Below, in pieces: positions 8,716-57,994 of a stretch of 64,000 bases of DNA (positions are counted from its first letter, which is position 1; each line of letters starts with the position of its first letter). Under the pieces are notes generated by a model, which worked only from the letters and a program-made list of their open reading frames with translations, did not search any database and had not been told where the DNA came from. The stretch comes from Liolophura sinensis (lineage: Eukaryota > Mollusca > Polyplacophora > Chitonida > Chitonidae): positions 22,203,501-22,267,500 of the forward strand of contig NC_088303.1 of assembly GCF_032854445.1 (NCBI RefSeq), in the 5' to 3' direction. A program made the position numbers and the translations under genes.

Positions 8716-9153
8716 TAATGTGGGGTGTCATGTCAGGTGTCCTCGGCATGATGCTTAGTGGCAACACCATTTGCTGGCATTAACTTGCCTGCCGCAAGAC
8801 AACACAGTATATGTACTCACAACTACCCTTGAATCCTTGACATCATACGACTGAAAACTTATGTACTACGTTAAACCCTAAGCATAAATATATACATACA
8901 TACATACATACGTACATAGACACATACATACGTACATACATGTACATACCGAGGAGGTTAGCGTGCTACATTCAGATACCTCCAGCATGAAACCAGAATG
9001 ACAGCTCTTATGTATCTGTGAAGTATTTTGGACACCTGCAACTCCCCTAGAAGTTTTCACAAAGCACGGAACATAAGAATTTATTCGTCCAGGTATGCAC
9101 ATACTTTGGTAACTATATTTTTAGACAAAACCACCTATGTGGCATCTCATCTC

Positions 9154-11590
9154 CTTGTTGCAGGAGGGTTTCATGTTACTGTCACATTACAAGAACATCC
9201 ATCTCCTCGCAGCAGGAGGGTTTCATGTTACTGTCATGTTTCAAGAACATCCATTTCCTTGTTGCAGGAGAGTTTCATGTTACTGTCACATTTCAAGAAC
9301 ATCCATTTCCCTGTGGCAGGAGAGTTTCATGTTACTGTCATGTTACAGGAACATCCATCTCCTTGTGGCAGGAGGGCTTCAGTACTGTCACATTACAAGA
9401 ACATCCATCTCCTTGTGGCAGGAGGGTTTCATGTTACTGTCACGTTTCAAGAACATCCATGTCCTTGTGGCAGGAGGGTTTCATGTTACTGTCATGTTTC
9501 AAGAACATCCATTTCCCTGTGGCAGGAGAGTTTCATGTTACTGTCACGTTTCAAGAACATCCATCTCATTGATGCAGGAGGGTTTCAGTACTGTCATATT
9601 ACAAAAGCATCCATCTCCTTGTGGCAGGATGGTTTCATGTTACTGTCACGTTTCAAGAACATCCATGTCCTTGTGGCAGGAGGGTTTCATGTTACTGTCA
9701 TGTTTCAAGAACATCCATGTCCTTGTGGCAGGAGGGTTTCATGTTACTGTCACGTTTCAAGAACATCCATTTCCTTGTGGCAGGAGGGTTTCATGTTACT
9801 GTCACGTTTCAAGAACATCCATGTCCTTGTGGCAGGAGGGTTTCATGTTACTGTCACGTTTCAAGAACATCCATGTCCTTGTGGCAGGAGGGTTTCATGT
9901 TACTGTCATATTACAAGAACATCCATGTCCTTGTGGCAGGAGGGTTTCATGTTACTGTCATGTTTCAAGAACATCCATGTCCTTGTGGCAGGAGGGTTTC
10001 ATGTTATTGTCATGTTACAAGAACATCCATGTCCTTGTGGCAGGAGGGTTTCATGTTACTGTCACGTTTCAAGAACACCCATTTCCTTGTGGCAGGAGGG
10101 TTTCATGTTACTGTCATATTTCAAGAACACCCATTTCCTTGTGGCAGGAGGGTTTCATGTTACTGTCACATTTCAAGAACATCCATGTCCTTGTGGCAGG
10201 AGGGTTTCATGTTACTGTCATATTACAAGAACATCCATGTCCTTGTGGCAGGAGGGTTTCATGTTACTGTCACGTTTCAAGAACATCCATGTCCTTGTGG
10301 CAGGAGGGTTTCATGTTACTGTCATATTACAAGAACATCCATGTCCTTGTGACATGAGGATTTCATGTTACTGTCATATTTCAAGAACATCCATGTCCTT
10401 GTGGCAGGAGGGTTTCATGTTACTGTCATATTTCAAGAACACCCATTTCCTTGTGGCAGGAGGGTTTCATGTTACTGTCACGTTTCAAGAACACCCATTT
10501 CCTTGTGGCAGGAGGGTTTCATGTTACTGTCACATTTCAAGAACATCCATGTCCTTGTGGCAGGAGGGTTTCATGTTACTGTCATATTACAAGAACATCC
10601 ATGTCCTTGTGGCAGGAGGGTTTCATGTTACTGTCACGTTTCAAGAACATCCATGTCCTTGTGGCAGGAGGGTTTCATGTTACTGTCACATTTCAAGAAC
10701 ATCCATGTCCTTGTGGCAGGAGGGTTTCATGTTACTGTCATATTTCAAGAACATCCATGTCCTTGTGGCAGGAGGGTTTCATGTTACTGTCATATTTCAA
10801 GAACACCCATTTCCTTGTGGCAGGAGGGTTTCATGTTACTGTCACGTTTCAAGAACATCCATGTCCTTGTGGCAGGAGGGTTTCATGTTACTGTCATATT
10901 ACAAGAACATCCATGTCCTTGTGGCAGGAGGGTTTCATGTTACTGTCACGTTTCAAGAACATCCATGTCCTTGTGGCAGGAGGGTTTCATGTTACTGTCA
11001 TATTACAAGAACATCCATGTCCTTGTGGCAGGAGGGTTTCATGTTACTGTCACGTTTCAAGAACATCCATGTCCTTGTGGCAGGAGGGTTTCATGTTACT
11101 GTCACGTTTCAAGAACATCCATGTCCTTGTGGCAGGAGGGTTTCATGTTACTGTCATATTTCAAGAACACCCATTTCCTTTTAGCAGGAAGGTTTCAGTA
11201 CTGTCACATTAGAAGAACATTCATGTCCTTGCAGCAGGAGGATTTCAGTACTGTCATGTTTCAAGAACATCCAGTTCCTTTTAGCAGGAGGGTTTCAGTA
11301 CTGTCACATTAGAAGAACATCCATCTCCATGTAGCAGGAGAGTTTCAGTACTGTCATATTAGGGTTTCAGTACTGTTATATTACAAGAACACCCGTTTCC
11401 TTTAAGCACGAGGGTTTCAGTACTGTCATATTGTACGAACGCCCATTTTCTTGTAGCAGGAGGATTTCAGTACTGTCATATATTACAAGAACACCCATTT
11501 CCTTGTAGTAGGAGAATTTCATTACTGTCATATGTTACAAGAACACCCATTTCCATGTAGCAGGAGCGTTTCAGTACTGTCATGCTCACC
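9154..11590. repeat. 52-bp minisatellite, about 40 regular units plus degenerate 47-50 bp units
   Basis: The unit caggagggtttcatgttact... repeats with exact 52-bp spacing (e.g. starts at 9419 and 9471) to about 11,180. It then decays into shorter units lacking the catgtta segment, to about 11,590. Units differ mainly at one block (cacgtttc, catatttc, catattac, catgtttc), and these variants recur in an alternating order, suggesting a higher-order pattern. The plus strand has no stop in any frame of the unit, and 52 is not divisible by 3. A frame of 718 codons (9028-11184) therefore runs through it by cycling through all three phases. I see no evidence that it is translated. Confidence 0.95.
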
Positions 11591-46183: not shown

Positions 46184-46753
46184 ATGGTAACCTGTCAAAA
46201 TGGGAAGGAAAACGGAAGTAAGGAAATACATGTATACCTTATTCTCTTAGCCCTGTTGGTGTTGGAATGTGAGTTCAAATTTACAGAGGACAGAAATGGA
46301 ATGGAATCCAGACTGATTTATGAGTCTGCTAATGGAAGTTCTTATACAGGAATGGACAGCTACAATGGTGTGAAATTCCTCATCTGGGCCGTACATGTGA
46401 ATGTCACACATGACCAACATGATGTCACCAGTCAAGCTGACCTCATTGCGGATGAAATTGGCTTACATAAGTTGGGCAGTGTAGGAGAACTTGCAGATCA
46501 TTTTTTATTTTCGTATCTACCAGAATCTTCACAAGGAAACTTAATGCTGCTCAACCAAGTGTACTCTATTTCTGATGTGCATTCTATTCACAAGAAACAT
46601 GTCCCTGATTTTGAGGATGTTGCCAGTAATGTTGGTGTCAAGCTCTCCAACCATCCAGCTGTTGTTTGGTTTGAACGCCAGACAGCTAAGTCAAGACAGA
46701 AACGGTCAACGTTGCATTTTAAGGACCCCCAGTTTCCAAAGCAGTGGCATCTG
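46184..46753 (+). CDS. PCSK7: PC7 exon 1: signal peptide and prodomain
   Basis: After a polar n-region of about 16 residues comes a hydrophobic core ([13 protein letters not shown]), a signal peptide. The prodomain follows and ends at RQKR-S (residues 171-175), an R-X-K-R site for autocleavage, directly before [12 protein letters not shown] at the start of the catalytic domain. The exon begins at an acceptor (tatttcag, ending 46,178), so at least one non-coding exon lies upstream. Confidence 0.92.
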
Positions 46754-49700
46754 GTAAGTCTGGGTTCAGTCTAGATAAACATTTTTGATTTAAGATCAAT
46801 CAGATACTGTTCAAGAAGATTTCTTTATTATATGAACTATTATATTTATTATATAAATAGTTTTGTCTTCAAAATTAAATTAAAAATGTGCATAAATCAC
46901 ACACTGAAATTTGCGAAAAGGTTTTAGAAATGAGTAGATTCACTTGTAACATATTTTATGCATTCATGTGTACACAAAGAGAGCTTTTTTGCAGGTAAAC
47001 TTTAAGGAAGAGGAAATGGATATTAACGTGACCGGAGTTTGGGACAGAAACATCACTGGGCGGGGTGTTACCGTAGCAATACTTGACGATGGTAAGATGG
47101 TTGCTCTGTATGCCTGTTCATTTGCAATTTTTTCTTGGTTTTTCTTGGATATTTTTTTTTTTTTTTAGGATTTGTCACACATTTAGTTCTTCAGACCTAT
47201 TGACCTTTATTGTCACTAGTCAGCACTGACAAATATACATGTTGAAAGCAATTAATAACAGTGAGAATGTACTGTAGAGCTCAAAGGGGCTGTTTACTGG
47301 TGTACTGTAGCGCTTGGAAGAGCTGTTTACTTGTGTACTGTAAGACTCGAAGGGGCTGTTTACTTGTGGACTGTAGCACTCAGAAGGGCTGTTTACTTGT
47401 GTATTGTAGGGATTGGAATGGTTGTTTACTTGTGCTTTGTAGGGCTCAGCGGGCCTGTTTACTTGTGTACTGTAGGGCTCGGAAGGGCTATTTACTTGTG
47501 CAAAGGTGGCTTACTCTTTGATGCACCATTTTATGACTATTTAGTAACGTCATCACTCTCTGATATGTTGGTAGGTCTGGAGTGGACCAATCCTGATATT
47601 AGACCTAACTACAATGCTGAAGGAAGCTGGGATTTGAATTCTGAGGATGGAGATCCAATGCCGAGTGGGGTAAAAGGTTAGTCAGCCAGACACAGGTTTT
47701 TATTTTGATGGATGTAATTTGCCTCGTCATTCACTCAGGTATTTTGTACATGAACCTTTTGCACCTGGATATCTGAGATGCAAGCAAAGTAGTGTTGACA
47801 TTGTGAATTAGCATTTTGTTTACTATGTCGTCGCAGACCTGATTCCTGGAATCAGTAAACCTTTGGTGCTTGTTTTTTCACCAAGTACCGGCCATGATGG
47901 CTCAGTTGGTAGAGCATCCGCTTCATGGGTGGTAGATCCAGGGTCAGTCTGGGGTTGGGTCACACCTAAGACCTTAAAATTGGAAGTTGTGGCTTCCTCG
48001 CTTGACGTTCAGCATTGACTGGTTGATCCGTATCAGTATAATGGCTCATGTGGAGTGACTTACTTGCCTTTGGTAAGTCGCCTAAGTGAAGCAGCACTAG
48101 ATAAAAGAGTGGTGAAAATCTGTCCTTCAACAAACCTTTCCCTTGATGGACCAATACACTTCTGTGTCGATATTAGTTTCTGTGGCTTAGTTGTTGATCA
48201 ACATCATGACGTTATCACTGACTGACACCTCTTCATGTGATGGCACCTCATCACAGGTCGTGGTTCAGTAGAGAGAAAAATCCCCCGCTAATTTGTACCT
48301 TATCCTAAGGTAATCTATTTTTCACACATATGATATGTCGGATATGGTTATGATTTGATTCCTTATGAATTTTATCCAAGTGGGATTTCTAGGTAAGGTA
48401 CATTTTCATTGAAATTATGACACATAAAAATGTTAACAATCACGGTAACATTGAACTTTTTATCATTTTTTATGTAACCAAGCACAATTTCAGATGTGTA
48501 TTCTTTGTCTTAAAACATTATTGCATCATCTGTCAGACTCAGATCTGAGTGCATTCAGATTTTGAACCATGGTTAAATCATGCGAGTCAACAACCATGTA
48601 CAGCTGTTAGCTGTCATATGTACTGCAATCTCCCAGAGTTATAAGGAGGCAAGTGACTATATGAAGTCAGGTGTTTAAATTTCCTGACTGTATACCTCCG
48701 TTTTTATAGGCTTGAACCATGCTCAACCAACACTCGGGTGTTACACTGAAACTACGTAGAATGGATTCAGTAATTTTGTCTATATCATATGACTACTGAG
48801 CCAGAGTAATAAGTGAATTGTATTTGAGTCAACGTAAAGCACCAATTTAATAAGTAAGTAAGTAACAACTGAAATAGTTAAGATTTTATTCGGAAATAAG
48901 TTATGTACCATTGTTAACATTGTTTTTAATCCTTATCATGAAGTATTATTTTACTGTGTAACATTATAGTTGAGAATCACCATGGGACAAGATGTGCGGG
49001 AGAAGTGGCTGCAGCTGCAAATCATTTCTGTGGAGTGGGCGTCGCCTACGAGGCAAAAGTCTCGGGTCTGCGCATTCTGGATGGACCAATGACTGACAGT
49101 CTGGAGGCTTCTGGATTCAACAAAAATATGCAGATAAATGATGTGTATAGTTGCAGGTACATGTACAATCTAAGTGATACCCTGTTTATTTCACGCATAT
49201 GCACGTACTGCTGTCTGGTGGGCAAATATTTTCTCTATCTGAAATATGATACTGAAACATTAACATTGTATGTGACTTAATGGTTTTTGGAAGAAGTTGC
49301 CCTTTGGGCTGCTACTTTAGATCACAATGTTTCTCACGTACCTTCCAAAGGGCGCCGACTATCACGGGACTCTGCCCGATTTCCTCCACCGATAAACCTG
49401 AACAATTCTGTATACATCTAAGTGAAATGCTCTTGAATAACAGCATTAAACACAAATTAAATAAGTACTACATATACATGTATCTTAAGAACTAATAAGC
49501 TCTTGTGTTGATTGTATAACCATCATCAAGCTGCAACCTTTCTTGATTTATCTTGATTTCTGTATCTTTTCACACAGGTCTAATTGCTGTTACATACTTG
49601 TACGCACACATGTATAAGGCTTCAATTTATTAGTTAAACTGATTGTGAACTGTTATGGATTGATTGTTTGTGCTTCTAGTTGGGGTCCTGATGATGATGG

Positions 49701-52700
49701 AAAGACTGTGGACGGCCCTCAAATTCTTGCAAAGGTTAGGACAAAACTATGTTCTTGTTGTAATACAGATTGCATTCTGATATCCATATTCCACCATAAT
49801 GCAGGCTGTTATCGTATAGGTGAAATACATGTATTCTTAAGTACGGCACCAATCCGTCAATAACACCAATCAGTCAAACAAAATGAACATATCCTTGTTC
49901 TTACCGGCCTTGTTTATCACCTGGGGAATTTGTTTTGTACTCGACAAGGTAAAACTGACTCTGTGTCAGGATATGGCTGCCCATAGATAGTCCAACACTG
50001 AACTTATATTGACCAGCTCTGTGTTAGTTTCGGTAAAGTCTAGTAAGATTGAATGAGTCTTTATTAGTCGGACATTTCCTCCCAACGTCTCGTACTCAAG
50101 CAGGTAGGTCATCCAAGATTGACTTAATGAAATATGGAAACATAGAAGATGAGCATAGTGCATTGTTTGATATAGTGAATTGCTCAATGTACTCTTACCT
50201 AATGATTAATACCAAGAGAAGCATGCTGATCAAAATCAAGTTTAAGAAAATGTCTTCATTAATAAGAGAAACTGTTTACTAAGGGGATTATCTCCATTCT
50301 CTAATCTAGCCCTAATCTGGCCCTCAACGGGTATACGGCCGATGGGAGGGGGTTGGCAAGAAGCATGCTGTGTGGCTTATCATGCAAATACAAATCGGAC
50401 TGGCGACCTACTCATAATAGGCATGTCCGTTTATTCAGTAGAAATAATGGGCTGTAAATGGACTGAAAGCGGACTGAGTGGCTTGGTTGGTATTGGCAAA
50501 ATACTTCTAGGTGTTTTTATAGGTGTCAGTGTTGGCAAGTTTTATTATTTGATTTTTCATTTATTAGTAAATTTGTAAAAAAAATTTTTCTGCTCTTTGA
50601 TTTTGTAGAGAGCTATGCATCATGGGATAGACTTTGGTCGGCATGGTTATGGAAGCATTTATGTTGTCGCTAGTGGTAACGGAGGAGAGCATCAAGACAA
50701 CTGTAACTATGATGGCTATGCAAACTCTATTTATACAATAACTGTCGGTAAGAGTTTCTTCTGTGCTCAGTGACAGATTGTGAGACAGGCAGACACATTT
50801 ACATGTAGATCATCCAACTCATTAATCGGATTTCCTTTTTTCAATTTAATTTAACTTGGTACGCAAGTTTTTTTTCCCGATTTGGTGATGTACAAAAGAT
50901 GTGTTATGTCTTTTTTTAATTTAATATAACTTGGTACGTAAGTTTTTTTCTAAATGTTTTGATGTACAAAAGAGGTGTTATAAGAATAATGTTGCTTTGC
51001 TTGAGTTCACTAATCCTTGACCAATGATTTTCCTTATTGGATCTGCAAGAACTGGCATGATTGGAACAGTACTGTTATTCTTCAACCTTGTCGCACATTT
51101 GTAAGGTGTTTATTCCAGCAGACTCTGAGGGCATTACTCTACGTAGACTGATAAAATTATACGTTTTGTTAAGCCTTGAAATGTGCCAATCCAGCCAATG
51201 TGGTTTTCTCTCCAAAAGCAAAATAAGAATTTGCATAAATTGTACTTAAAGTTGCGCTTTTTTATGCAAAAGGTTAAGGAATTAGAGAATGTCTCACTGT
51301 TTGTCAGACGTGTGCTTGGAAATGTGGTTTCATTTATGACCCAGAAGTCTGGGTTTAATGGGGTCATACAAAGGAACCTGTAAATGGCATTTGTGCCTTC
51401 TGTAGTTTGAGATTCAGCATTTAGGCAAATGTACAATAATTTATTTATTTATTTATTTATTTATTTATTTGATGGGTGTTTTATGCCATACTCTTGTACT
51501 CACTATTTCACTTATACGACAATGGCCAGCATTACGTTGGGAGGAAACCCATGACTATCTCGCAGGTTGCTGGAAGACCTTCCCGGGTACATACAGTGAT
51601 TGAATTATTTACCTTGTTTTATGCCTTTTGCAACCTCTATATTAGTCAGCAAGGGACTAATTGAACATAAATGCACATATATATAAATCTGTGTGTTTAC
51701 ATGGTGGATGTAGTAACATTGTATAAAGATGAACGGCTGATCGTAGTTCTGAAAAAAAGTACATATACATGTAGTTCTGATGTAGTGTAACTCTTATTGA
51801 GTGTAGCTCTGATGGATTTTACATGTAGTTCTTATTACGTGTAGTTCTGATGGATTTTACATTTAGTTCTTATTACGTGTAGTTCTGATTTTATAATGTA
51901 GTTCTGATTGAGTTCAGTTCTGATTGAGTTTAGTTCTATTTGAATGTAATTCTGATTAAGTGTGCATGTAGTTCTGACAGATTGTACAGGTAGTTCTAAT
52001 TGAGTGTAGTTCTGATTAAGTATAGTTGTGTGTGTGCTGCAGGGGCTGTGGATGAGACAGGCCAGATGCCTTACTATGGGGAAGAGTGTGCTTCCATGCT
52101 GGCTGTCACCTTCAGCAGTGGGGGTCCTGACCGACGCAGTATTGTAAGTACCCAGTATGCCAAATCTAAGTCATATCGGTGCTTCACGGGATTGAAATAA
52201 TGTTTATTGAAAGAAGATTTTGAGAGTAAACAGGGTTCATCTCTGAAATGACAGAGGGCAAATTTGTCTTTATCAGTTTGACAGAAAAGCAAAGAGTGAA
52301 TATCTCATTAAATAGTGTTACATGTTTAGAGTTTTGCGAAATATACAAAGGTGAGCTTTTATACTCATTCTCAAACAAGTTTCTAGATATTGGACCTATA
52401 TTCTTTGTTCTGTGGACACACCAGGTGACAACTGATTGGCGTAAGGATGGAGGCACAGGGTGCACAGCACGCCATTCGGGCACCAGTGCTGCCGCCCCAT
52501 TGGCTGCAGGCATGATAGCTTTGATGTTACAGGCTCGGCCCTGTCTGACATGGAGAGATGTACAATACCTGATCATCCTGACAGCCCTAAAGGTAAATCT
52601 GTCTGATTGAGAGTCTGGTGTAAAATACCTGGTCACCCTGACAGCCCTAAAGGTAAATCTGTCTGATTGAGTGTCTGGTGTAAAATACCTGGTCACCCTG

Positions 52701-55700
52701 ACAGCCCTAAAGGTAAATCTGTCTGATTGAGTGTCTGGTGTAAAATACCAGGTCATCCTGACAGCCCTAAAGGTAAATCTGTCTTGATTGAGTGTCTGGT
52801 GTAAAATACCAGGTCATCCTGACAGCCCTAAAGGTAAATCTGTCTGATTGAGTGTCTGCTGTAAAATACCAGGTCATCCTGACAGCCCTAAAGGTAAATC
52901 TGTCTTGATTGAGTGTCTGGTGTAAAATACCAGGTCATCCTGACAGCCCTAAAGGTAAATCTGTCTTGATTGAGTGTCTGGTGTAAAATACCAGGTCATC
53001 CTGACAGCCCTAAAGGTAAATCTGTCTGATTGAGTGTCTGGTGTAAAATACCAGGTCATCCTGACAGCCCTAAAGGTAAATCTGTCTTGATTGAGTGTCT
53101 GGTGTAAAATACCAGGTCATCCTGACAGCCCTAAAGGTAAATCTGTCTGATTGAGTGTCTGGTGTAAAATACCAGGTCATCCTGACAGCCCTAAAGGTAA
53201 ATCTGCCTGATTGAGTGTCTGGTGTAAAATACTTGGTCGTTGAGAGCCTTAATTGTTATTCTGTCAGACTGAGTATTTGATCTGAGTATTGACCTAGTTT
53301 TCACCAACAGATTGATTATCAGCTGTGAAAAGGGGAGAATTAGTATCCATGAATTTGAATTGCCCCCTAACTGGTTCTGCCTGTGAGGTGTTTTTCTGGT
53401 AATGCATGAGTTAGTCCCCTTGCCCTAAAATGTTACCTCTATTATGTATTTAAGTGACAGTGTGGGAAGAAAATAAAGCACTAAATAAGTTTGAAGACAT
53501 TCTCCGTTTGTTCACAGGTGGACATAAATATTGGGAAGTGGCAAAAGAATGGAGCAGGTCTTCATCACAGCTTGGAACATGGATTTGGTTTGATGAAAGC
53601 TTGGAGGCTGGTTAATGCTGCTAAGGTAAGGGATAAAGATGAAAGCCATAAGGCTGATTAGTGCTGCTAAGGTAATGGGGAAGGATGGAAGCCTGGAGGC
53701 TGGGCAATGCTGCTGTGGTAATGGGGAAGGATGAGAGCCTGGAAGCTGGGCAATGCTGCTGTGGTAATAGGGAAGGATGAGAGCCTGAAGGCTGTTCATT
53801 GCTGCTATGGTAATGGGTAAGGATGAAAGCCTGAAGGCAGGTCAATGCTTCTAAAGTAATGGAGAAGGATGAGAGCCTGGAGGTTGGTCAGCTGCTGCTA
53901 TGGTAATGGGGAAGGATGAGAGCCTGGAGGCTGGTAATTGCAGCTAAGGTAATGTGAAAGTATGGGAGCCTGGAGGCAGGTCAAGGCTGCTAAGGTAATG
54001 GGGAAGGATGAGAGCCTTGAGGCTTGCCAATACTGCTAAGTTAATGGGGAAGGATGAGAGAGTGGAGGCTTGTCAGTGCTGCTAAGGTAATGAGGAGGAT
54101 AAGAGCTTGGAGGCTGGTCAGTGCTGCTAAGGTAATGGGGAAGGATGAGAGCCGGGAGGATGGTCAGTGCTGCTTTGGCAATGCAGAAGGATGAGAGGCT
54201 GGAGGCTGATCAGTGCTGCTAAGGTAATGGGGAAGGATGAGAGCACAGAGGCCCAGAGGCCTGTTATGGTAATGGAGAAGGATGAGAGCCTGGTGGCTTG
54301 GACAGGTCAGTGCTGCTAAGGTGAGGATGAAAGCCTGAGGACAGGTCAGTGCTGCGAAGGTGACTAAAGGTAAAACTTAGTCTCTGCAACACAGACAGAA
54401 TCATTGCCAACTCAGAAATAGCATTGTCATTAGAATTAAATTATTTATTAGTCACGATTTCTCGTTTTTAGAACAGATGTTGTACCATAAGCAAGTCATT
54501 AGCTTCTTCAAACGTTCACTGGTATCAAAAACAACATCAGTGGTATCAATAAATACTCCTGTTCCTGTCTTTAAAGCTTATAGCAAAAAATATCACATTG
54601 TATATCTTGACCAAAATAACACTGTCTGAATATGTCAGATTATGTGTTCTGATCTCAACAGGTTTGGAAGTCTGTACCCTGGGTGACTGTTTTCAACTCT
54701 GAGCTGTTCACACCAGATCAGCCCATACCCAACAACAATCAAGCCCTCATCCTCTCCCATACAGGTAAGGCCACCTACCTCTCGCCGCTCAGGTACTTCA
54801 CACTTAACCATTTAGAATTACTTGCTTTTTTAGTGTGGTCCAATTTTATACACCATATTATTTTTGCTGAGAAGATGAAGAAGTTTGATATTAAAGTATT
54901 GAAGGTAAAAATGTGACGTTCTTTAATGTACAACAGTTTGGAAAAGAAAGGACACCAAAATATCAAAAAGAAAAAACAAACAAACAAGAAAGACTTGCAC
55001 ATATATGTACTAGAGGATGAGTTAACTCACCTTGTACCAAGTTTGAACAAATTTAAATGTACATGTATACATGTGGACATGTTTTTATACCTGTGCTGCA
55101 GTCCTCAACAATAATAATCGTATTCCTCTTTGACAAACCCGTGCTTAAAATTTCTATGAAGGTTCTGGAAATGTGTTCATAATTTATTCTAATTTAGTGA
55201 CATCACTATATGACCATTGTTCAAATGTGCATGTCTTTACCTGTATCTGTGGTGTTGTTTTATGTCCAGTAACTGCTGCCATGATGTTAGGCTACGAGCT
55301 AAAGACATTAGAGCAGGTTCAGGTCATCGTGACCTTGTCACACTGGCGTCGTGGTAACCTGGAGATCCGCCTAACCTGCCCCAGTGGCACCCAGTCCATT
55401 GTAGGGGCGGCACGTCCCAAAGACAGGTAGCCTAAACAAATATGATGAACTTTTTTTATCATCACAAAAAAGTCTCTGTTTGTAGCGGAATGTTTAAGAT
55501 TTTCTAGAGAATGGTCGTACTAGTTCACCTTTCATTTTTTTCATGAAAAAGTCATTTATTTTTGAACATTATGTGCATGAAGAGATCACTGAAACATGGT
55601 TCTCAGTTCTTTTCTCTAAAATGTCAGATTAACAGCTAGCTGTCATGATGTCAACTAAAATACATTCTGCTAATAAATGCAATCTGGTTCTAAAGTACTA

Positions 55701-57994
55701 TATCTATATCAAATTTTGTCATCCTCTTCTGGGTCTGTAGCTCAGGAGAAGGCCTCAATGGCTGGGTGTTCTCCACTGTGCGGTGCTGGGGGGAGATGCC
55801 CTTGGGGGAGTGGAGCCTTACTGTGATTGATACTGGTATGTTATATTCATATACCCTCTCTCTTGTTGAACATACATGCAGATGGTTGCTCAAGAGGCTG
55901 ATTACAAATGGAATCATCGTGATTATAGTGTCAGTATTTCCCTTGTGTAAATTACTCACAACGTCAGCAAAAGAACTTAGCTGAATGCCTGACTGTCTCC
56001 AGTCTGCATTGTTGTAGAATAGGCATAGATTGTTGTTCGCCTTTTTGTATGTCTATTGTAGGAATGCTTAGTGATGCACAGTCAAAACATGTTTGTATTT
56101 TTTTTGTTCATTTGTGAAGCACAAATGTAACACACACTGTCTTGAAGTAGTGAGACTGACAGAGGTGTGGTCATAGAAGAACAATATACACTAATAAATG
56201 GTTGTAATGGGATCAGTAGAGAAAAAGGCAGTTGTGAGACAACCACGGGTACTTCCTTTTGTATTGTGGGATTTTTGAAGGAATTCCTGTAGTTAAGGGG
56301 AGATAACTGTTGTTGCAGGTGCGAAGACGTCAAACCCCACAGGCATGCTGAGAAAATGGCAACTCAGGCTGTTTGGGTCACCCATGACGCCAGAAGAGTT
56401 CCAATCCAGGAAAAGGTAACTCTCTAACATGATGTTGATTAAAATTAAATTTGTGACTGTTTTTAACTTTGTAATCAAGAGGATAATGATTCTGTTCTAT
56501 CCTCTCATTATTGAAAAAAAAAAAATGTTTGTGCACAATTTCGGCCAATATTGGCTGAGTGAATATTAGTACAATCTAGGTGGGAAAATATTCTGAAAAT
56601 GCGTCTAGAAGTATGTACTTTAAAAACATTTCAATTTTGTTCAACTGTATTGAAACGTTTTAGGTTGATCAGTGAGGCTATGTCGGGGAAGTTCCTGAAT
56701 GACAGCTACAATTTACCGTGTCCTCCTCCAGACAACACCGAGCCTGAAAAACCTGTGATAGAGGAGAGAGTGCTCAAGGTAAGGACATACACATCTGATG
56801 TATGGCTGCTTGCATTGTTGTATGTCCTAAGATGGTAATAAGCAGATTTAACTGCTTCTGCATGTCTGCTTTTGTTTTGTACAAATCCAGCTCATGCTGG
56901 CTTCCACTCCAGCCCTATATGGAAAGGTCTGCCTGCAACCTGCAAATGTTGTGGGTTTCCCCAGGGCTCTGCCCAGTTTCCTCCCACCTTAATGCTGGCC
57001 GTTGTCGTATAAGTGAAATATTCTTGAGTACAGAGTAAAACACCAATCAAATAAATAGATAAATAAATTTTGTGGTGTATGCTTTAAGTTATTTGTCGAG
57101 AGAAAATTTGTGTGCCACATTACTCTCAAAAAGCTGTGGATTTACTCTTTCCACTATTAACTACTGTTGTAAAAGTGAAATATGCTTGATTATAGTGTTA
57201 AGCACCTATCAAATCAGTCAATCAGTCATCTGTGGTATATGCAGAAGTTTGTCAGGTATTGTGCTGTGATCTTGATCCAGTAACTCCTGGCGAGTGAGGG
57301 GTCGTGCGGACTGTAGTTTTGTGTCAAAATGTTGTCTAGCTGCTGTAAATACTAAAGTGCAGTGGACCTATCCCAGTTAAGCTGGATGAAGTATTTACAG
57401 CTTTTGATAATCTCAAGGCTAATCCTGTTCTTGTGTGTTCTTTTGATTTACACAACATTTTCCCCCTCACAGGTGCTTCTACTGTCTGGAGCATTTTGTA
57501 TCTTTGTTGCCCTGTACGAGACCATGGAGTATGCCCTGTGTTACAATGACGAAAAACAAGAACACAAAAAGCTACTTTCATTGACAGCTCGGGCTCAGCG
57601 ATTGGCTCGTCGGCACAGTGGGGTCACATATCACCAGATATCAGGAGAGGACACAGCCATTGGTGTGGAGGAGGAGTGTATCCCCATGACAGCCTTACAG
57701 GAGCGCCATCTACTGGCAGTGGATGGTAACAATGAAGATGTTTTGTTCTGTGCAGAGACAGACACAAGTCTCAAAGATTTACACAATGGTATTCCAAAGG
57801 AAATTGTGGATAGTTTATCCCAGGATGAAATTAAACTAAACTTGGAGTTACAGGTTGGTGATAAATTTTGTGATTCAGAAAAACGTGAGATGCCAGAGTT
57901 GTTTGACCACAGTTTGGCCAGCTCTCTTGTAGTGGATCTTGGACATTCTCCAAGTTCGTCTTTCCCAACAGCAGAGCCCATGAGTAAGAGGTAA
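46184..57994 (+). CDS. PCSK7: Proprotein convertase subtilisin/kexin type 7, complete
   Basis: A calcium-dependent type I membrane serine protease of the trans-Golgi/endosome route, which cuts proproteins after basic motifs. Coding exons: 46184-46753, 46995-47091, 47575-47676, 48970-49156, 49680-49734, 50609-50747, 52043-52143, 52425-52592, 53518-53625, 54662-54764, 55270-55426, 55741-55835, 56319-56415, 56664-56778, 57473-57994. All junctions are GT-AG and in phase. The total is 2616 nt, 871 residues plus stop, longer than human PC7 (785) mainly in the tail. Catalytic Asp221 (ILDDG), His261 (HHGTRCAGE), oxyanion Asn361 (ASGNGG) and Ser438 (GTSAAAP) are all present. [19 protein letters not shown] and [12 protein letters not shown] place it with PC7 and not furin. 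Start choice: ATG at 46,184 in ACCATGG context, followed by a hydrophobic signal core. Confidence 0.96.
46995..52592 (+). CDS. PCSK7: PC7 catalytic domain exons 2-8
   Basis: Exons at 46,995, 47,575, 48,970, 49,680, 50,609, 52,043 and 52,425 encode in order: [20 protein letters not shown] and the Asp221 motif; [11 protein letters not shown]; the His261 block; [13 protein letters not shown]; the Asn361 block with [32 protein letters not shown]; and the Ser438 block with [21 protein letters not shown] and NIT (201, 209) are potential N-glycosylation sites. Confidence 0.95.
47262..47515. repeat. 36-bp tandem repeat, about 7 copies, in PC7 intron 2
   Basis: Units of gggctgtttacttgtgtact plus gtagggctcggaag recur. 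Because 36 is divisible by three, an open frame with a 12-residue period results. It ends about 60 bp before exon 3. Confidence 0.85.
47889..48250 (+). mobile_element. Second SINE family, tRNA-like head
   Basis: gccatgatggctcagttggt, then agagcatccgcttcatgggt, has a consensus box A (TGGCTCAGTTGG) and a box B-like stretch (gtagatccagggtc). It differs from the main SINE. It lies in PC7 intron 3; the 3' boundary is approximate. Confidence 0.55.
49785..49880 (+). mobile_element. SINE tail fragment
   Basis: caccataatgcaggctgtta, then tcgtataggtgaaata, taagtacggcaccaatc and caataacaccaatcagtcaa, match the main SINE tail. It lies in PC7 intron 5. Confidence 0.55.
51065..51292. mobile_element. Small inverted-repeat element (MITE), family A copy 3
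   Basis: The left end gtactgttattcttcaacct and the right end gcaaaaggttaaggaatta are near reverse complements. The internal sequence matches copies 1 and 2. It lies in PC7 intron 6. Confidence 0.65.
51434..51600 (-). mobile_element. SINE copy with expanded TTTA tail
   Basis: About nine ttta units precede gatgggtgttttatgccata, acttatacgacaatggcc and gcaggttgctggaagacctt. It lies in PC7 intron 6. Confidence 0.7.
51765..52032. repeat. Degenerate 17-30 bp repeat (gtagttctgattgagt)
   Basis: tgtagttctgat recurs about twelve times with irregular spacing up to the acceptor of PC7 exon 7. Confidence 0.75.
52557..53245. repeat. 60-61 bp minisatellite derived from the exon 8/intron 8 junction of PC7
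   Basis: Eleven copies (including the native one) plus a decayed twelfth. Each unit holds about 35 nt matching the end of exon 8 (cctgacagccctaaag) followed by the 5' splice site and intron start (gtaaatctgtctgattgag). The first three spacings are exactly 60 bp; later units with an extra T are 61. All eleven keep AAAG|GTAAAT intact. Confidence 0.95.
53518..56778 (+). CDS. PCSK7: PC7 end of catalytic domain, P domain and juxtamembrane exons 9-14
   Basis: Exon 9 (53,518-53,625) carries [20 protein letters not shown], which closes the protease domain. Exons 10-13 encode the P domain that stabilises it: [57 protein letters not shown] and [11 protein letters not shown]. Exon 14 encodes [20 protein letters not shown] and an acidic stem. 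All match the order in vertebrate PC7. Confidence 0.93.
53592..54366. repeat. 46-bp minisatellite derived from the exon 9/intron 9 junction of PC7
   Basis: About sixteen units including the native one. Each holds about 34 nt matching the end of exon 9 (gatgaaagcttggaggctgg ... gctgctaag) plus the donor and about 12 intronic nt (gtaatggggaag). Units are more diverged than in intron 8; some lose the GT (for example ggcaat near 54,178), but most keep aaggtaat or tggtaat. Confidence 0.92.
56886..57066 (+). mobile_element. SINE copy lacking the head
   Basis: aatccagctcatgctggctt, caacctgcaaatgttgtggg, ggctctgcccagtttcctcc and cgtataagtgaaatattctt, then an aaataaataga tail. It lies in PC7 intron 14. 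Confidence 0.7.
57473..57994 (+). CDS. PCSK7: PC7 exon 15: transmembrane segment and long cytosolic tail
   Basis: A hydrophobic segment ([15 protein letters not shown], from residue 699) is followed by a tail of roughly 150 residues ending TAEPMSKR. The tail has a basic patch ([12 protein letters not shown]), several acidic stretches and two Tyr (TYHQI, EYALCY), as expected of sorting signals. It is longer than the human tail and shows no obvious alignment beyond the membrane span. Confidence 0.9.
   Translation: MLLLSGAFCIFVALYETMEYALCYNDEKQEHKKLLSLTARAQRLARRHSGVTYHQISGEDTAIGVEEECIPMTALQERHLLAVDGNNEDVLFCAETDTSLKDLHNGIPKEIVDSLSQDEIKLNLELQVGDKFCDSEKREMPELFDHSLASSLVVDLGHSPSSSFPTAEPMSKR

Follow-up and report, generated by a model that had tools for sequence, protein, structure and literature searches.

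Junction-spanning repeats in other animals

Tandem repeats whose units span an exon-intron boundary and carry splice signals have been named 'mirages' in lancelets. Here we describe two arrays of this class in a mollusc, both in one proprotein-convertase gene, which lies in a 64,000-nucleotide stretch (the window; NC_088303.1, positions 22,203,501 to 22,267,500 of the forward strand) of the genome of the chiton Liolophura sinensis. In lancelets such repeats occur in Adh3 and the globin genes BflGb6 and BflGb9 (PMC3087553) and in TnC and PGBD5 (PMC3902484); both papers report that regular splicing is undisturbed. A related case is intron 7 of the human factor VII gene, with its 37-bp repeats, where splicing normally uses the most upstream donor alone (PMC6627357). 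Human genes are also described in which internal tandem repeats lie at boundaries of exons and introns, and in which minisatellite expansion alters gene structure; new introns are proposed there to arise inside repeats (PMC2812944), whereas in the chiton an existing intron carries the repeats. The chiton assembly was published as Liolophura japonica (PMC11068029), and a correction renames the species L. sinensis (PMC12441733).

The chiton arrays resemble the lancelet mirages in that the tandem unit spans the boundary, starting 34 nucleotides (nt) inside exons 8 and 9, respectively, and in that the repeats carry splice signals (11/11 in array 1, in intron 8, and 12/14 units in array 2, in intron 9). 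They differ in belonging to a mollusc, in having units of 60 and 46 bp and as many as 11 identical donors, and in being known here from sequence alone. As in factor VII, the first repeat of a long near-identical series holds the native 5' splice site (in the chiton at 52593, in unit one); the gene and the 37-bp repeat are unrelated, and use of the first site, which is reported there, is presumed here. The 31-bp variable number tandem repeat of human CBS is said to span the exon 13/intron 13 boundary. No mollusc precedent was found in a literature search whose coverage left out most subscription papers.

The donor minisatellite of intron 8

Exon 8 of the convertase gene (52425–52592, plus strand, placed by its splice signals and open frame) ends in ...LTALK. 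Its last 34 nt and the first 26 nt of intron 8 form the unit of a 60/61-bp minisatellite on the same strand (array 1), which Tandem Repeats Finder (TRF) located at 52559–53232 with a period of 60, 11.2 copies and 97% matches; the score of 1242 is far above chance repetition. An earlier note, made by a model from the letters of the window, had stated that the exon 8 end and its donor are repeated at the start of the intron and that all copies keep the donor. Both statements held, since CTAAAGGTAAAT was found 11 times within 52541–53300, starting at 52587 to 53191 with a spacing of 60 or 61. All 11 donors are intact and read AAG/GTAAAT, with the exon/intron border after AAG: the native 5' splice site of intron 8 lies at 52593–52598 (plus strand), and its ten identical copies follow on the plus strand at 52653, 52713, 52773, 52834, 52894, 52955, 53016, 53076, 53137 and 53197. 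The note had called the donors equivalent and had suggested that each be scored; the predicted duplex with the 5' end of U1 small nuclear RNA is -6.8 kcal/mol at every one of the 11, which thus differ neither in sequence nor in predicted U1 pairing.

Against a consensus of 60 columns, which leaves out the additional T of the 61-bp units, copies 2–11 show 96.7–100% identity, and copies 4–11 show 98–100%. Two differences are common to copies 2 and 3, units 4, 6, 7 and 9 each contain an additional T, and the native unit departs from the consensus at four columns, three of them exonic. At the 3' end of the array there is a decayed further copy (53223–53280, plus strand; unit score 55, compared with 112–120 for copies 2–11), the GT of which barely pairs with U1 (+0.7 kcal/mol) and which we label the older seed of the array. 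Homogeneous inner copies together with a divergent unit at the boundary, as in a mirage, were therefore found, and array 1 appears to be an old array recently homogenised through block exchange; the recency that the note had read from the similarity of the units agrees with this. Copies elsewhere in the genome, which would mark an introner or another dispersed element, were not found: a DNA search of the assembly with 52424–53300 returned one match, the query itself (very common words were skipped, and the result is not proof).

Past the native donor, the frame of exon 8 reads GTA AAT CTG TCT GAT TGA, that is, five codons and a stop. This TGA (52608–52610, plus strand), 15 nt past the native donor, would be met if any of donors 2–11 were used, and when exon 9 is joined to each of these the predicted product ends at codon 479. 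The early TGA, and truncation before exon 9 on use of a downstream donor, had both been anticipated. The stop would fall after GTSAAAP (codon 436, in exon 8), which we take to be the catalytic serine motif, but still within the Pfam protease domain and ahead of the P domain.

A second array in intron 9

A further donor-spanning array, absent from the earlier note, was located by TRF at 53592–54298 (plus strand) in intron 9, with a 46-bp unit, 15.4 copies and 80% matches. The unit comprises 34 nt of the exon 9 end and about 12 nt of intron 9 including the donor. According to the exon model, exon 9 (53518–53625, plus strand) begins VDINIG... and ends ...LVNAAK, followed by GTAAGG; the native 5' splice site (53626–53631, plus strand) reads AAG/GTAAGG and has a U1 duplex of -10.0 kcal/mol. 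Array 2 is diverged all along, more so than array 1. The GT at the donor column is kept in 12/14 units (units 2–15), having been lost at 54007 and 54144, and among the 14 GT-bearing copies 13 are weaker than the native site (-3.2 to -7.6 kcal/mol) and one, at 54321, is its equal (-10.1). Mean identity is 0.897 for the nine donor bases and 0.876 for the rest of the unit, and 12/38 nine-base windows match the donor window or do better. Since the donor copies are no better conserved than the rest of the unit, they behave as sequence without selection for splicing. For slips to later donors, the first in-frame stop is met after 33 nt in intron 9, compared with 15 nt in intron 8. The remark in the note that intronic minisatellites are mostly not built from splice sites is likely true in general, but array 1 is not unique here, given intron 9 and the other genes treated below.

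The host gene

The convertase gene (46184–57994, plus strand) was modelled from splice signals and the open frame as 15 coding exons and 14 introns encoding 871 amino acids; the model counts coding exons only, and an extra noncoding exon upstream is possible. The numbering of exons 8 and 9 in the note agrees with this independent model. Pfam analysis of the product revealed an S8_pro-domain (3.6e-11), a Peptidase_S8 domain (4.6e-51; residues 212–492) and a P_proprotein domain (3.5e-23; residues 557–645), and the closest relatives of known structure are furins (2.2e-128). The protein is presumably PCSK7-like, judging from its C-terminal membrane segment and tail. Furin can be aligned across the native 8/9 junction with no gap; the first donor (52593) is therefore the native one, and the gene still needs it. 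No array crosses any of the remaining 12 donors or the 14 acceptors of the gene.

Junction-spanning arrays in other genes

The assembly searched comprises 609,464,459 bases in 632 contigs. The donor pattern was defined as three donor words at a spacing of 32–62, and the counts that follow are matches, of which several may fall in one array, and not independent arrays. Donor-motif triples exceeded the reversed pattern 3.7-fold (5190 vs 1416), and a control with swapped motifs gave 1989 vs 1774. For triples of the perfect donor word the figures were 111 vs 69 (1.6 times), and for the acceptor word 1766 vs 709 (2.5 times).

Exons upstream of the arrays were called by eye plus homology; a three-periodic Markov coding score was dropped, the known PCSK7-like exons themselves scoring only -5.4 to 13.1. 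Among the first eight groups of donor-pattern places on contig C1, one array is anchored to an exon, that of an ankyrin gene (L041; 8.9e-12). By eye, five of the 19 arrays found through the perfect donor word (among 100 of the 111 matches) look exon-anchored, namely L046, L049, L052, L055 and L061, and homology backs three of them: L046 lies in a TOM70-like gene (4.3e-4), L055 follows an ankyrin-like exon (1.1e-3, below Pfam's cut-off), and L061 matches MED12 (5.7e-9), the alignment stopping at the donor. L061 had first been guessed to be GINS1. L049 and L052 gave no database match, and for L044 and L051 the exon anchoring is doubtful and no credible family was found. One of 20 arrays obtained with the swapped motif (L078) is also donor-spanning, with a match to METAP1 (1.7e-14) that ends at the donor, and the control is therefore not clean; within it, homology was used only for L063 and L078 and the others were judged by frames alone, so that the two sets were searched unevenly. 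The array at L055 (G000:C8:1479760-1480880, minus strand) has 33-bp units, about five of which were examined and stay open in frame, and each later donor, if used, would add 11 residues. L052 and L061 likewise have no in-frame stop over the two and one further copies examined, respectively.

A less biased sample consisted of exon ends from domain searches, with the arrays not looked at beforehand. It comprised 40 kinase exons (of 138 matches), 52 kinesin exons (of 132) and 18 ubiquitin hydrolase exons (of 57), 110 in total. Inclusion was applied by hand and called for a match ending inside the domain, a short open frame and, for the 70 kinesin and hydrolase exons, no stops; to reach 40, three kinase exons whose frames are longer were also admitted, and not all fitting matches were taken. 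The 110 are not independent because several come from one gene. Donor-spanning arrays were found at two of the 40 kinase exons (L096, 67 bp, and L104, 65 bp) and at one of the other 70 (L145, a kinesin exon, 63 bp), giving 3/110 or 2.7% (exact 95% interval 0.6–7.8%), a rough frequency since some match ends may not be exon ends and an array whose units are less than about 75% identical would be missed. Outside the 110, nine kinase loci ending inside the domain (L009, L012, L014, L021, L025, L027, L030, L031 and L035) have no array with a TRF score of at least 70 at the exon 3' end; the kinase loci L006–L035 are mostly long single-exon matches and of little use. An array flagged by script at L112 begins beyond the donor and was not counted.

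At L104 (G000:C10:22583766-22584186, minus strand), the exon ends in YRDLK and has a Pkinase match; we presume it to encode a G-protein-coupled receptor kinase (GRK). The copies have a U1 duplex of -9.5 kcal/mol compared with -5.7 for the native donor, and if strength decided, the kinase exon would be extended to a stop after six codons. This locus is the best single natural test of order against strength.

On the acceptor side, the counterpart is L191 (G000:C10:35008498-35009109, minus strand), the only acceptor-spanning array counted among the 70 exons, in which 5.9 copies of a 41-bp unit precede a real ubiquitin-hydrolase exon and carry TTTTACAG plus the first bases of that exon. Degenerate 53-bp units lie 5' of another ubiquitin-hydrolase exon (L192, G000:C6:28004696-28005322) and may reach the acceptor, a doubtful case that was left uncounted, as were the script-flagged L143 and L171, in which the arrays stop short of it. 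Two further places have the look of small exons. At L039 (G000:C1:504600-506000), the unit of a 49-bp array resembles an acceptor, a 12-base micro-exon and a donor (CACAG ATTTGTGATCAG GTAAGC), although no exon is evident 5' of the array. At G000:C1:20174691-20174809 (minus strand), an acceptor-pattern match running from TTTTCAGG to ACAGGTAAGT resembles a short exon between repeated acceptors, with both splice signals.

Origin of the arrays and alternative explanations

We consider it likely that the convertase arrays are neutral repeats of the mirage type, which were seeded across a junction, expanded, and tolerated through splicing at the first donor. Slippage or repair would have turned a short stretch that chanced to straddle the exon-intron junction into tandem duplicates, which unequal exchange would then have spread and homogenised. 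Since the units would descend from a stretch astride the junction, each would hold a 5' splice site copy together with an exon end, and unit one would be the exon end itself. The spliceosome would then take the first, exon-defining donor as the RNA emerges from the polymerase, and the later copies would leave with the intron; the array would be tolerated for this reason and is probably harmless, and the occasional slip to a later donor would give an early stop, followed by clearance through nonsense-mediated decay. We propose this sequence of events because of the lancelet and factor VII precedents.

Several points weigh against it. The last step, use of the first signal in the chiton, is expected by analogy. 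It is less obvious at L104, where the copies pair better than the native donor, and the argument from a quick stop fails for some arrays since L055 has none in frame. The excess of both donor- and acceptor-motif triples suggests that junctions may be favoured seeds. In addition, random seeding at an assumed 0.1–0.3 arrays per kb (the window holds 20 arrays in 64 kb, or 0.31 per kb) with a 40-base target per donor would give 0.4–1.3 arrays at 110 donors, so that at least three has a P of 0.01 at the lower density and 0.15 at the higher, and P is 0.05–0.14 for another array at one of the 13 remaining donors in the convertase gene. In a genome so rich in repeats, random seeding is nevertheless sufficient to explain the observed frequency; the excess over it is weak, and a moderate preference for junctions is conceivable.

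An alternative is that minisatellites arise preferentially at splice junctions in this genome (perhaps through R-loops, a paused polymerase or an AGGT core), so that placement is nonrandom. The arrays at 3/110 donors, the motif triples with their swapped control, and the presence of arrays in adjacent introns of one gene all speak for it. However, junctions are motif-rich anyway, the triples are matches and not arrays, the perfect donor word is only modestly enriched, and seeding at the window density is not rejected; we regard nonrandom placement as unlikely. Somewhat less likely still is that the tandem donors are used, with splicing sliding along the array, truncated (poison) products tuning the protease, and copy number acting as a dial. 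Eleven equal donors, ten of which lead to an early stop, are what such a device would need, and a donor lacking the G at +5 is only moderate (-6.8 kcal/mol), 9/13 of the other donors in the gene being equal or better. Yet the precedents point the other way, with no aberrant mRNA in lancelets and normally only the most upstream donor in factor VII, and array 2 lacks upkeep, in view of its 13/14 weaker GT copies and two lost GTs. The functional redundancy of the donors suggested in the note is not supported, nor is the actual production of truncated protein. The birth of a new exon or intron out of the repeats was considered as well.

We consider it very improbable that the animal has a single copy which was multiplied in the assembly. 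Tandem repeats are often misassembled, and the coverage of 14X is modest (PMC11068029), but the HiFi reads, which average 8,347 bp (PMC11068029), span the 0.7-kb array. The differences between copies are moreover structured (the 61-bp units 4, 6, 7 and 9, and the block of copies 2–3), array 2 has only 80% matches, and the arrangement recurs at other loci.

Arrays of this type offer natural test pieces, since the choice among identical 5' splice sites is usually studied in constructs. In the chiton, conserved genes carry near-identical donors in series of several to more than ten, with stronger copies downstream in at least one of them (L104). The arrays would extend the lancelet phenomenon to a mollusc and add a first, rough frequency (3/110 donors), and ladders of false donors are to be expected in gene prediction for such genomes. 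It is conceivable, though rather doubtful, that chiton junctions are preferred minisatellite birthplaces with mirage arrays in a few per cent of introns, and that the genome amounts to a natural tandem-donor library, including L104, where position over strength must decide, and L055, where an open 33-bp unit would add 11 residues per donor.

Other features of the window and assembly

The window also contains a large 52-bp minisatellite at 9143–11360 (TRF: 42.9 copies, 92% matches), outside the convertase gene model. In the assembly, contig G000:C99 carries seven matches to mitochondrial COX1, six of them full-length, about 15.5 kb apart between 8348 and 102844; this series is either a concatemer of mitochondrial DNA within the assembly or a tandem copy in the nuclear genome. 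The 15,209-bp contig C632 has one COX1 match.

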